In this document: positions 9,554 to 13,724 of the stretch, piece after piece | Numbering within the stretch: position 1 is the stretch's first letter | How the letters are laid out: each line of letters opens with the position of its first letter | Origin: Opitutia bacterium | GTDB lineage: Bacteria > Verrucomicrobiota > Verrucomicrobiia > Opitutales > UBA953 | DNA length: 64,000 nt | Direction: 5' to 3' | Assembly (NCBI GenBank): GCA_947470855.1 | Contig: CANIUQ010000007.1 | Span: forward strand, 1 to 64,000 | The notes under the pieces: model-generated | Databases searched by the model: none | What the model was told of the DNA's origin: nothing | What the model saw: the letters and a program-made list of their open reading frames with translations, nothing else | Translations under genes and position numbers: made by a program

Positions 9554-9574
9554 ACGCCTTTCGCTTTTCCATGA

Positions 9575-9603
9575 GGGCTCGGGTAAAACCGAGCCCTTTT
9601 TGT
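9575..9603 (+). terminator. Rho-independent terminator of the xyl operon
   Basis: Perfect 8-bp stem GGGCTCGG/CCGAGCCC with a six-base loop (9575-9596), followed directly by a run of five T and then GTTT. Confidence 0.9.
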
Positions 9604-11092: not shown

Positions 11093-11128
11093 TTCAGCCC
11101 ACTTATGTTTTAAGTGGGCTGAATTTTT
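11093..11128. terminator. Bidirectional terminator between tRNA-Phe and the facing gene
   Basis: A 13-bp stem TTCAGCCCACTTA/TAAGTGGGCTGAA with a five-base loop. It is followed by T5 on the plus strand and flanked by a T-rich tract on the minus strand as well. It can end both the tRNA transcript and the converging secreted-protein gene. Confidence 0.85.
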
Positions 11129-11882
11129 ATCGATTAAAAAGGAGACGGAAAATGGTATATCTTTCTCCGTGCTCAAAGGGTGTCGCCGGTGTCTTATCGA
11201 ACCCGTGGTTTAAGAGGTAAATAATTTTTTCCTGCTTACCATTGGCCTTATCACCTTTGATAGTTTGTTCAATCCACTTAACTTGAACAACGCCGAAAGG
11301 AGTTGAGTCATCGCGCCATACTGTACCCTGCATGGTAATCGTTTGCTTATTAACAAAGGGTGGATCAATCACGGTTACAGAGTCCATTTTAAGTCGATAG
11401 CAGGAATAAGTTTTTCCACCCAGTTTTACTTTTTCTTTGGGAATTTTTTCGGCAACGAGTGAGCTCTCGGTGGAGTATCCTGCGGTTTGTGAAAGAGAGG
11501 CGACGTCTTCGGGAAGCATATACCACGACCCTTTAACGGGATCAGAAAAAACGACCTCTGCAGAAGTTTGTAAAAGTTTGCTCGCTCTTTCGCGGTCGAT
11601 ATCTTTCGGAACCAAGAAGTGTAAAGGGGCTTTGTTGCTCGAGCCTAGCCAGCGCACAGGCTCGACGGTAAGCCAGACATAAGGCTGTCCGTTGACATTA
11701 CCTGCCTCGGCCACGGATAATTTTATTTCACTGGGTTGCTCGGGGGGGTTGAGGTCGGTGCGGCCAATCGCATAAGTCGCCCAAGACCCCGCAGGAGGTA
11801 GGTTTTCTGCGAAAATGTTCCATTGCGCCTTGGCACTGGGTACGGCCGTAAGAACGGCAATCAGCCACCACAGTAATCGCAT
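11127..11882 (-). CDS. Secreted protein of unknown function
   Basis: A 251-residue protein (from ATG 11882; the adjoining ATG at 11885 is equally possible) with a clear Sec signal, MRLLWWLIAVLTAVPSAKA, and predicted cleavage before Gln20. The mature part looks like soluble beta-rich sequence (ATYAIGRTDLN, YVWLTVEPVRWLG, TVWRDDSTPFGVVQVKW) with one Cys (in YSCYRLKM). I recognise no catalytic motif. The final TVWRDDSTPFGVVQ strand pattern resembles periplasmic proteins that report on lipid-linked or surface components, but that is only an impression. Its stop codon lies inside the bidirectional terminator shared with tRNA-Phe. Confidence 0.65.
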   Translation of the reverse strand: MRLLWWLIAVLTAVPSAKAQWNIFAENLPPAGSWATYAIGRTDLNPPEQPSEIKLSVAEAGNVNGQPYVWLTVEPVRWLGSSNKAPLHFLVPKDIDRERASKLLQTSAEVVFSDPVKGSWYMLPEDVASLSQTAGYSTESSLVAEKIPKEKVKLGGKTYSCYRLKMDSVTVIDPPFVNKQTITMQGTVWRDDSTPFGVVQVKWIEQTIKGDKANGKQEKIIYLLNHGFDKTPATPFEHGERYTIFRLLFNR

Positions 11883-11987
11883 CATGCACGAATAATGGGC
11901 AAAATCGTTGATTTTACCAGCCCGCAATCGTGTTTAGAGCACCTTTGGTTTTGACTCATTCGGTGCTTTGATGACCTTTTTACTCCC

Positions 11988-12071
11988 ATGGAAACAAAAG
12001 CACAGAATCGCCAAGCCCTTAGCCGGGTCGGTCGTGCTTCTATTCCTGCGATTATTATCATTGGGCTCTAG
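11988..12071 (+). CDS. Isoleucine-rich leader peptide (cimA attenuator)
   Basis: A 27-codon open frame from ATG 11988 to TAG 12069-12071. Its C-terminus reads A-S-I-P-A-I-I-I-I-G-L, with four consecutive Ile codons (ATT ATT ATC ATT, 12051-12062), a fifth Ile three residues earlier and a final Leu. Such codon clusters are the hallmark of amino-acid attenuators (ilv and leu leader peptides). The gene downstream makes citramalate, the first intermediate of the pyruvate route to isoleucine, so the amino acid matches the pathway. There is no clear Shine-Dalgarno sequence, as for most genes here. The frame is too short for routine gene callers. Confidence 0.7.
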   Translation: METKAQNRQALSRVGRASIPAIIIIGL

Positions 12072-12078
12072 GCCCGCT

Positions 12079-12142
12079 GAACGGACCGCCTTTGGGCGAT
12101 TGACCGTTCCGCGGCAACCGGAGCGTAGGCTCGCTTTTGTTT
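12079..12142 (+). promoter_or_regulatory. Mutually exclusive leader hairpins upstream of cimA
   Basis: Hairpin A pairs GAACGG (12079-12084) and CGCC (12087-12090) with GGCG (12095-12098) and CCGTTC (12104-12109). Hairpin B pairs CGTTCCG (12105-12111) with CGGAGCG (12119-12125), including one G-U pair. They share bases 12105-12109, so they cannot coexist. A T-rich stretch (TTTTGTTT, 12135-12142) follows, after a small GAGC/GCTC stem. A ribosome at the leader stop codon would cover the 5' arm of hairpin A; one stalled on the Ile codons would not. This is the geometry expected of transcription attenuation, although the terminator arm is weak. Confidence 0.55.
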
Positions 12143-12167
12143 CCCTCTCCCTTTAACCCATCAATCC

Positions 12168-13724
12168 ATGACACGAAAAATTGAAATCTACGATACAACA
12201 CTCCGCGACGGATCGCAGGGGCTGGGGGTGCATTTTTCGGTCGAAGATAAATTGCGCGTTGCACAAGAACTCGAACGCTTTGGGGTTGCTTACATTGAGG
12301 GAGGATGGCCTGGCTCAAATCCTCGCGACATTGAATTTTTCGCCGAAGCTAGAAAATTAAAATTCCGCAAAGCTAAACTTGCTGCTTTTGGTTCGACGCG
12401 AAAAAAGGGTATCCGTGCGTCGGAAGATGCACAGGTGCGTGGCTTACTGGAAGTGCACACGCCAGTCGTTACCATTTATGGTAAGACTTCAGCTTTGCAT
12501 GTGCGTGAAGTTTTACGCTGCTCTCCTGAAGAAAATTTGGCGATGATTGCGGACACGGTGGCCTATTTGAAGTCACATCATCGTGAAGTGGTTTACGATT
12601 GCGAGCATGCGATCGATGGCTGGAAGGAAGATTCCGCTTATGCTCTCGCTTGTTTCCGTGCGGCAGCGGAAGCGGGAGCCTCTCGCATTGTACTCTGCGA
12701 TACGAACGGCGGTTCTTTACCTGATGAAGTAGCCGCCTGCACGCGGGCAGCGATGGCGGCAGTTGCCGTCCCTATCGGCATACACACCCATGATGATTCT
12801 GGTTTAGCGTTAGCGAATGCTCTGGCCTCATTGGATGCGGGAGCCGTTCACGTCCAAGGTACGATGAATGGTATCGGTGAGCGCACAGGGAACTGTGATT
12901 TAACTGCCGTTATTCCAGTTGCTCAAATCAAGCGCGGGTGGAGTTGTGTACCCGCTAGTTCATTGCGACGTCTAACGGCACTTTCACGATTTGTTGATGG
13001 CGTTATCAACCAAGCTCCTGACCCTCGTCGTCCTTGGGTTGGAGCGGCAGCTTTTGCACATAAAGGCGGAACGCACGTTGACGCCGTAAGAAAGTTTTCA
13101 GCAGCCTATGAGCATGTTGATCCCTCGGCCGTGGGAAATAGTCGCGATGTCTTGGTTAGCGATCAATCGGGTCGCAGTAATTTAACCCTCAAAGCTTCCG
13201 AGTTGGGTATCGAATTGGATAAAGATGCTCCTTCCACGCGAGCTGCTCTGGAGGAACTGAAGAAACTTGAACATCAAGGGTGGAGCTTTGAAGATGCCGA
13301 TGCCTCTTTGGCCCTTCTGCTTCGTCATCATTTAGGTAAATCGAAAGAGATACCTTTCACCGTGGTGAGTTATCATGTTTCGGTGCAAGGCGGACAAAAA
13401 GAGACAACTTGCGAGGCCACCGTCCGGGTTCGTGTTGGTAAAACTGAAACTTTAACCGTGGCGGAAGGGCAGGGGCCGGTTCATGCTTTAGATCAAGCTT
13501 TGCGCCAGTCTTTAGTTAAGGCCTTTCCTAAACTTAAAAAAGTACATCTCGCCGATTATAAAGTTCGAGTTTTAGCCGGCCAAGATGGCACATCATCAAA
13601 AACGCGGGTGGTTGTTCGTTCGACTGATGGCAAGCGCTCTTGGGGCACGGTGGGGGTTAGTGCTAATTTAATTGAGGCATCCCTGCGCGCTATCTCTGAC
13701 GGCTATGCCCATGCACTAGTTTAG
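12168..13724 (+). CDS. cimA: (R)-citramalate synthase
   Basis: Condenses acetyl-CoA and pyruvate to citramalate, opening the threonine-independent route to isoleucine. The 518 residues comprise an HMGL-like TIM barrel (YDTTLRDGSQGLGVHFS at residues 6-22, CDTNGGSLP, IGIHTHDDSGLALANA, GTMNGIGERTGNCDL), a linker, and a C-terminal LeuA-type regulatory domain (VRVRVGKTETLTVAEGQGPVHALDQAL). Length and the GGTHVDAVRK segment fit the TIGR00977-type citramalate synthases rather than 2-isopropylmalate synthase; the two are related, so the substrate call is by subfamily. It is preceded by an Ile-codon-rich leader peptide, which supports the isoleucine role. A tRNA-Arg gene converges on its end. Confidence 0.9.
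   Translation: MTRKIEIYDTTLRDGSQGLGVHFSVEDKLRVAQELERFGVAYIEGGWPGSNPRDIEFFAEARKLKFRKAKLAAFGSTRKKGIRASEDAQVRGLLEVHTPVVTIYGKTSALHVREVLRCSPEENLAMIADTVAYLKSHHREVVYDCEHAIDGWKEDSAYALACFRAAAEAGASRIVLCDTNGGSLPDEVAACTRAAMAAVAVPIGIHTHDDSGLALANALASLDAGAVHVQGTMNGIGERTGNCDLTAVIPVAQIKRGWSCVPASSLRRLTALSRFVDGVINQAPDPRRPWVGAAAFAHKGGTHVDAVRKFSAAYEHVDPSAVGNSRDVLVSDQSGRSNLTLKASELGIELDKDAPSTRAALEELKKLEHQGWSFEDADASLALLLRHHLGKSKEIPFTVVSYHVSVQGGQKETTCEATVRVRVGKTETLTVAEGQGPVHALDQALRQSLVKAFPKLKKVHLADYKVRVLAGQDGTSSKTRVVVRSTDGKRSWGTVGVSANLIEASLRAISDGYAHALV

Follow-up and report, generated by a model that had tools for sequence, protein, structure and literature searches.

The trp, his, ilvGMEDA and leu leaders of E. coli are ribosome-mediated transcription attenuators of the trp type. 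Peptide leaders have also been described in other bacteria. For instance, the ilvB-II motif (Corynebacterium) and the ilvB-OMG and ilvB motifs carry a conserved uORF rich in BCAA codons before ilvB (PMC10272879), and the leader peptides of Mycobacterium cys operons are presented, in the available part of the source, as having no obvious terminators, with Rho as one proposed possibility (PMC1262725). T-boxes are listed in Bacillota for the COG that includes isopropylmalate, homocitrate and citramalate synthases (available part of PMC12452182). In the available parts of the papers on ilvB-II, ilvB-OMG and the Actinobacteria leaders, cimA is not the subject of the uORF leaders described (PMC10272879, PMC1262725), and no report of a cimA attenuator, leader peptide or T-box, or of such a leader peptide in Verrucomicrobia or Opitutus, was found in the open-access literature.

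Here we describe a leader found directly upstream of cimA in a 64,000-nucleotide stretch of DNA (the window, to which all coordinates refer). An earlier note on this DNA had proposed a classical isoleucine attenuator of cimA. Conservation, ribosome geometry, gene content and the presence of separate cimA leaders in the same order speak for that proposal; the second of its two hairpins, by contrast, is only a putative terminator, and this arm reads as an unusual element, either a non-canonical terminator or a pause element.

The leader frame upstream of cimA and its distribution

The source genome (1.36 Mb, 96% complete) encodes three PALP proteins, CysK, TrpB and ThrC. As no threonine deaminase was found among them, CimA is probably the sole entry route to isoleucine in this genome, and isoleucine control of cimA would be expected. 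As the earlier note had read it, a frame of 27 codons that ends in Ile-Ile-Ile-Ile-Gly-Leu-stop lies upstream of the gene:

11951-11956, + strand: TTGACT, putative -35 element, kept upstream of the leader ATG in relatives
11988-12071, + strand: leader ORF of 27 codons, METKAQNRQALSRVGRASIPAIIIIGL*, with ATG at 11988 and TAG at 12069-12071
12042-12062, + strand: putative regulatory Ile codons (ATT 12042, ATT 12051, ATT 12054, ATC 12057, ATT 12060)
12168-13724, + strand: cimA (citramalate synthase), the putatively controlled gene; TIGR00977, 642 bits against a cut-off of 450

A CimA scan of public genomes yielded 80 loci, and the nearest relatives of the source genome were mostly Opitutae MAGs, some of them lake-derived going by their names. 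In the nearest group, 46 distinct upstream regions were compared and 44 have the leader, one of them (L024) holding the leader end only, at a contig edge. There is no leader before cimA in L019 and L020, which belong to the 46, or in L040, which does not, and these three stand outside the alignments A1 and A2. L024 is included in A1/A2 and not counted among the 41 complete leaders; L031 and L034, whose last 200 nt duplicate those of L029, were left out, and L015, L039, L041 and L050 have no upstream DNA.

The 41 genus leaders are 27 or 29 codons long, with L018 counted from an inner ATG (30 codons from its first ATG). Their last 12 codons contain four to six Ile in 40 of the 41 and three Ile in the remaining one, and Ile codon usage is mixed (ATT 108, ATC 99). 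The identity of the stop codon varies while its place is constant (TAA 23, TGA 15, TAG 4; n = 42). A short ORF with at least four Ile in its last 12 codons occurs in 40/41 genus cimA upstream regions, and dinucleotide shuffles (60 per sequence) contain such an ORF at a frequency of 0.0012 per sequence; consequently, the frame is not a product of chance. As a control, the equal test on other genus genes gave 0/20 upstream of leuA and 1/13 upstream of ilvB, and no convincing leaders were seen before either gene in the genus. A short frame with clustered codons for an end-product amino acid, placed before a biosynthesis gene of that same amino acid, is what trp-type attenuators have, and both features are present here.

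A covariance model of the element (R1) found matches in 45 of the 55 genus genomes, one in each. Among the R1-negative genus genomes, six (G007, G010, G022, G024, G065 and G068) are without cimA at the thresholds used and four (G008, G060, G067 and G070) have a cimA that is missing its 5′ part. In a phylum sample of 387 genomes, R1 gave three matches, all in the source genus, which is a soft negative for the rest of the sample, as strict filters were used and ten candidates were scored per genome. In the single genome of the sister genus g23, cimA is present and the leader absent; cimA was not found in the searched genomes of g22.

The TTGACT element precedes the leader ATG in 41/41 genus sequences, at 37-42 nt in 40 of them and at 51 nt in L018 (from the inner ATG). 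Thus, a transcription start downstream of 12071, which the earlier note had named as fatal to the idea, appears unlikely. No clear -10 was seen by eye in the window, and the terminator/promoter-type scan listed no promoter here. Judged by eye, the leader ATG is so near the presumed promoter that the cimA leader mRNA may be nearly leaderless. Additionally, the start codons that were viewed in the genus (cimA, leuA and others) are preceded by a pyrimidine-rich, G-poor stretch with no Shine-Dalgarno visible by eye.

Alternative pairings and the position of the ribosome

Two mutually exclusive hairpins, A (12079-12109) and B (12105-12125), had been proposed in the earlier note. Both are present, and they exclude each other because they share one arm, arm 3. 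Hairpin A (GAACGG 12079-12084 : CCGTTC 12104-12109) is the core of a stem 2:3, and hairpin B is hairpin 3:4. Beyond that description, hairpin A is extended by CCGC 12074-12077 : GCGG 12111-12114, and stem 1:2 is a further element:

12062-12076, + strand: hairpin 1:2 around the stop codon (12062-12066 : 12072-12076)
12074-12114, + strand: antiterminator-like stem 2:3 (12074-12077 : 12111-12114 plus 12079-12084 : 12104-12109)
12086-12099, + strand: inner hairpin within 2:3 (12087-12090 : 12095-12098 plus an outer position)
12105-12125, + strand: hairpin 3:4, presumed terminator or pause arm (12105-12111 : 12119-12125)

Pairing statistics were taken from alignment A2 (42 sequences, 35 distinct rows). 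Hairpin 1:2 is paired in 99.4% of cells, with a two-sided change at one pair (C-G to G-C, in two sequences), and stem 2:3, which is almost invariant, in 98.6%. Hairpin 3:4 is paired in 95.7% of cells; in three relatives (L014, L016 and L069) the standard arm 4 is lost and 3:4 is formed via a shifted partner. The inner hairpin is paired in 85.1% of cells, and four of its five pairs change on both sides; its outer pair is paired only in some relatives, being unpaired in 18 of the 35 distinct rows. No covariation was seen in 2:3 and 3:4 across the 42 sequences, because their arms hardly vary, and the fit of arm 3 to two partners may be the reason for this near-invariance. It is conservation rather than covariation, then, that argues for the pairing of these two stems.

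The composite of 1:2, the 2:3 core and the inner stem has 94.6% of its cells paired and five pairs changed on both sides, four in the inner stem and one in 1:2. None of 500 shuffles was as high for pairing, two-sided changes or covariation score, with the caveat that kinship among sequences can by itself give values above shuffles, even where no structure exists; further pair types were not above shuffles (223/500 as high). The Ile-rich short frame and the pairing that the earlier note had proposed to look for in close relatives are, thus, both kept there, so that the loss of either, which it had set as grounds for rejection, was not observed. The covarying stems that it also expected are 1:2 and the inner stem, and not 2:3 or 3:4. 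A perfect 12-bp helix in the MFE fold, which joins the leader start to the T-rich run behind arm 4 (11990-12001 : 12133-12144), was rejected, as it is broken in L003, whose CimA is nevertheless 99% identical to that of the source genome; L002 retains it with one wobble.

The front of a ribosome lies about 12 nt past the first base of the codon in the A site. With this front, a ribosome would cover the RNA no further than 12072 when on the Ile run, and to 12075 on Gly, 12078 on Leu and 12081 on the stop codon. Of these positions, only the stop is predicted to mask arm 2 in the 2:3 core (12079-12084), which supports the geometry suggested in the earlier note and corresponds to the trp-type arrangement, in which 2:3 and 3:4 exclude each other (here with conserved pairing and no covariation). 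In folds with the ribosome at the stop and arm 2 masked, 3:4 forms in 42/42 sequences. With the ribosome on the last Ile, 2:3 forms in 26/42 and 3:4 in 15/42; although these 15 stalled-state folds favour 3:4, stem 2:3 is transcribed before it.

On this basis, we consider it likely that the leader is a ribosome-mediated isoleucine attenuator of cimA. We infer a transcription start a short way before the leader ATG, and translation of the frame. When Ile-tRNA is plentiful, the ribosome would reach the TAG and cover the RNA to about 12081, arm 2 would be masked, hairpin 3:4 would form and the RNA polymerase would be stopped or strongly paused before cimA. When Ile-tRNA is scarce, the ribosome would stall on the Ile codons and cover no further than 12072; arm 2 would remain free, 2:3 would fold first and prevent 3:4, and cimA would be expressed. 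Hairpin 1:2 would act as the usual 1:2 pause or no-translation element.

The region behind hairpin 3:4 and the rival explanations

The step in which hairpin 3:4 would stop the polymerase is the least certain part of this model, and two further features of the window bear on it:

12134-12142, + strand: T-rich run CTTTTGTTT, with T at fixed spacing behind arm 4 in relatives
12094-12136, + strand: window-specific lower stem (GGGCGA 12094-12099 : TCGCTT 12131-12136), from RNAfold in the ribosome-at-stop state

The weak point that the earlier note had itself named, a T-rich run some nine bases past hairpin B, is real. No U run adjoins 3:4 in the 22 distinct tails (from 39 of the 42 sequences) that form the tail statistics, or in L014, L016 and L069, which were left out of them; a 3:4 intrinsic terminator with a directly adjoining U run, as in trp-type attenuators, is therefore not what is found. 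Arm 4 and the T run are separated by a spacer of about ten bases, in which C predominates in most relatives and to a lesser degree in the window; counted from the end of CGGA[AG]CG, positions 11, 12 and 13 have T fractions of 0.91, 0.95 and 0.68. The lower stem would stand below 3:4 and adjoin TTGTTT, and it is absent from the folds of the near relative L003 and the other relatives shown. Other places in these genomes do have canonical intrinsic terminators, for instance 9573-9598 and 11093-11123 in the window. The scan for terminator-like sites gave 26 against 27.3 expected in shuffles, so that sites were counted only where a long stem stands at a gene end. Because there is no adjacent U run and no Rho was found (see below), hairpin 3:4 would be a terminator without a U run or a pause signal, or else a step is missing from the picture.

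A first alternative, which we regard as rather improbable, is that the leader does sense isoleucine and that 3:4 is a pause element, with the outcome set either through the pause itself or through control of cimA translation. Hairpin-stabilised pauses show a spacing of 10-12 nt past the hairpin, which the conserved T behind arm 4, preceded mostly by C, would fit; in addition, the scan for terminator-like sites did not report hairpin B. However, the distance separating arm 4 from the cimA ATG ranges from 22 to 50 nt (39 sequences), so 3:4 does not cover the cimA start codon and there is no sign of a translational switch. Moreover, plain terminators precede cimA in some genomes of other families of the Opitutales.

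Those families were reached by inspecting the cimA upstream regions of 85 Opitutales genomes outside the genus, 16 of which have a candidate leader: 3/16 genomes of family f14, 11/16 of f21 and the weaker candidates G452 (f94) and G459 (f4). In each of the three f14 genomes (G163, G209 and G157), an Ile leader is accompanied by an arm that can pair with the 5′ arm of the terminator (2:3 arms assigned by eye) and by a canonical poly-U terminator hairpin before cimA, recognized by script in G209 and by eye in G163 and G157. As the Ile run falls earlier in their peptides, f14 scored 0/16 in the end-weighted Ile-ORF test, which gave 9/16 in f21 (0.0073 in shuffles) and 3/37 in other Opitutales (0.009 in shuffles).

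In f21, nine of the 11 leaders end in Ile-Ile-Ser or Arg-Ile-Ser, and a stem of 8-10 bp is found at or near the leader end in 11/16 genomes, with stem sequences that differ among genomes; G534 and G562 have a T-run hairpin further downstream. When arms were swapped between f21 genomes, the mean was -16.5 kcal/mol against -18.9 for their own pairing, a moderately specific result, as 6/10 swaps were equally good in L178, L254 and L258. Two of the f21 leaders (L252 and L253) are Ile-poor and were accepted by eye on their shared end and stem, and L256 has no stop at the usual place. No leader was found in the 251 nt upstream of cimA in L227. Loose ORF matches in L168, L242, L244, L272, L278, L283 and others were taken as chance.

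Some observations were made beside this survey. In L068, a Candidatus Sumerlaeaceae MAG, MTNSAASFLPISRIIIIGPPRVR* is encoded about 109 nt upstream of cimA and is followed by GC-rich repeats; this may be an attenuator of cimA outside the phylum. Upstream of ilvB in L135, L137 and L161 (Opitutales families f3, f5 and f4) lie short ORFs in which Val codons occur in runs, such as ...GVVVVTVDVVS*; they are probable valine attenuators. In several Limisphaerales-like Verrucomicrobia (L042-L065), a short CCGC...GCGG repeat was seen by eye right before the cimA ATG, without a leader.

A second alternative is that the element is a conserved structured leader or a small RNA, with a short frame that is not used and Ile codons that are incidental. 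It draws on the stronger conservation of the RNA arms relative to the start-proximal part of the leader, and on the substitution pattern. Near the Ile run, pN/pS is 0.28 in the 27-aa leaders (17 sequences) and 1.15 in the 29-aa leaders (23 sequences; L018 excluded from the count), while whole-leader values are 0.77 and 1.07 for the two groups against 0.88-1.09 in shifted frames, so a constraint on the peptide is seen only near the Ile run of the 27-aa leaders. From this mixed result it follows that Ile content, frame and stop position are conserved, and the exact peptide is not. Nevertheless, frame, stop position and Ile content persist while the start-proximal sequence drifts, the Ile-ended ORF far exceeds its expectation in shuffles, and the differing cimA leaders of other families are likewise Ile-rich. 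Consequently, we consider an unused frame very unlikely.

Rho-dependent attenuation, with Rho loading on a C-rich, G-poor stretch once the ribosome leaves at the stop, would suit the region from arm 4 to the cimA ATG, whose base composition across 39 sequences is 51% C and 5% G, and the terminator-less peptide leaders of Mycobacterium were tentatively ascribed to Rho in the available part of the source (PMC1262725). Yet no Rho (TIGR00767, E 1e-20) was found in any of the 55 genus genomes, of which 22 have a completeness of 90% or more, and the best TIGR00767 match in the source genome reaches 23.8 bits. This is set against its presence in 140/144 genomes of the phylum Verrucomicrobiota (115 over the cut-off and three others only at 1e-21 to 1e-32), where two of the four negative genomes belong to the source genus, and in 14/15 chosen relatives, including other genera of the same family; the exception is the sister genus g23 (G449). 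There is, thus, an apparent lineage-specific loss of Rho in the source genus and g23, of which no report was found in the open-access literature. C-rich leaders also precede other genes here, as judged by eye. Even if a highly diverged Rho is conceivable, Rho-dependent attenuation is unlikely on these searches, and we give it hardly any weight.

Finally, a T-box or other known riboswitch sensing tRNA-Ile or a metabolite is barely credible in spite of the T-boxes recorded for the citramalate synthase COG in Bacillota (available part of PMC12452182), since the element contains a conserved frame and an Rfam scan of 11800-12300 (E up to 10) gave only two chance-level matches (E 4.1 and 6.9).

Returning to the isoleucine attenuator, it is tempting, if rather doubtful, to see the combination of hairpin 3:4, a C-rich spacer and a T run at a fixed distance, in a lineage without Rho, as a distinct class of termination or long pausing, with cimA attenuators having arisen repeatedly in the Opitutales.

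Comparison with known attenuators

The element is real and conserved, and it is very probably an isoleucine attenuator of cimA. If this is true, attenuation by peptide leaders would in Verrucomicrobiota also reach citramalate synthase, with which the isoleucine route independent of threonine begins, and translation in Opitutales would follow transcription closely enough for a ribosome to steer folding. It would also raise the question of how RNA polymerase, in a genus with no detectable Rho, is halted by a hairpin that has no U run behind it; the three f14 and two f21 genomes with an ordinary terminator at cimA could serve for comparison.

As far as the available part of the source goes, the Mycobacterium cys leaders are similar in their runs of control codons near the stop and in having no canonical terminator, and differ in having no conserved hairpin (PMC1262725), whereas the cimA leader combines conserved hairpins with undetected Rho. 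The ilvB-II motif, to judge from the available part of its description, also occurs once per genome and has overlapping RNA pairing, but it has a U-run terminator and precedes ilvB (PMC10272879), while the cimA leader precedes cimA and has no Rfam match.

Among the described systems, the trp-type attenuators provide the class. The cimA leader is unlike them in that it would control cimA, in its Ile control codons, some with Thr or Gly between them, in the mostly C-rich spacer that follows arm 4 instead of a U run, in the very short probable 5′ UTR before the leader ATG and in belonging to a genus where no Rho was found. Because one tested feature, the adjacent U run, fails, it is filed as a variant of the trp type, with which it shares a short leader ORF with control codons, a stop codon beside arm 2, alternating 1:2, 2:3 and 3:4 pairings and a place just before a biosynthetic gene.
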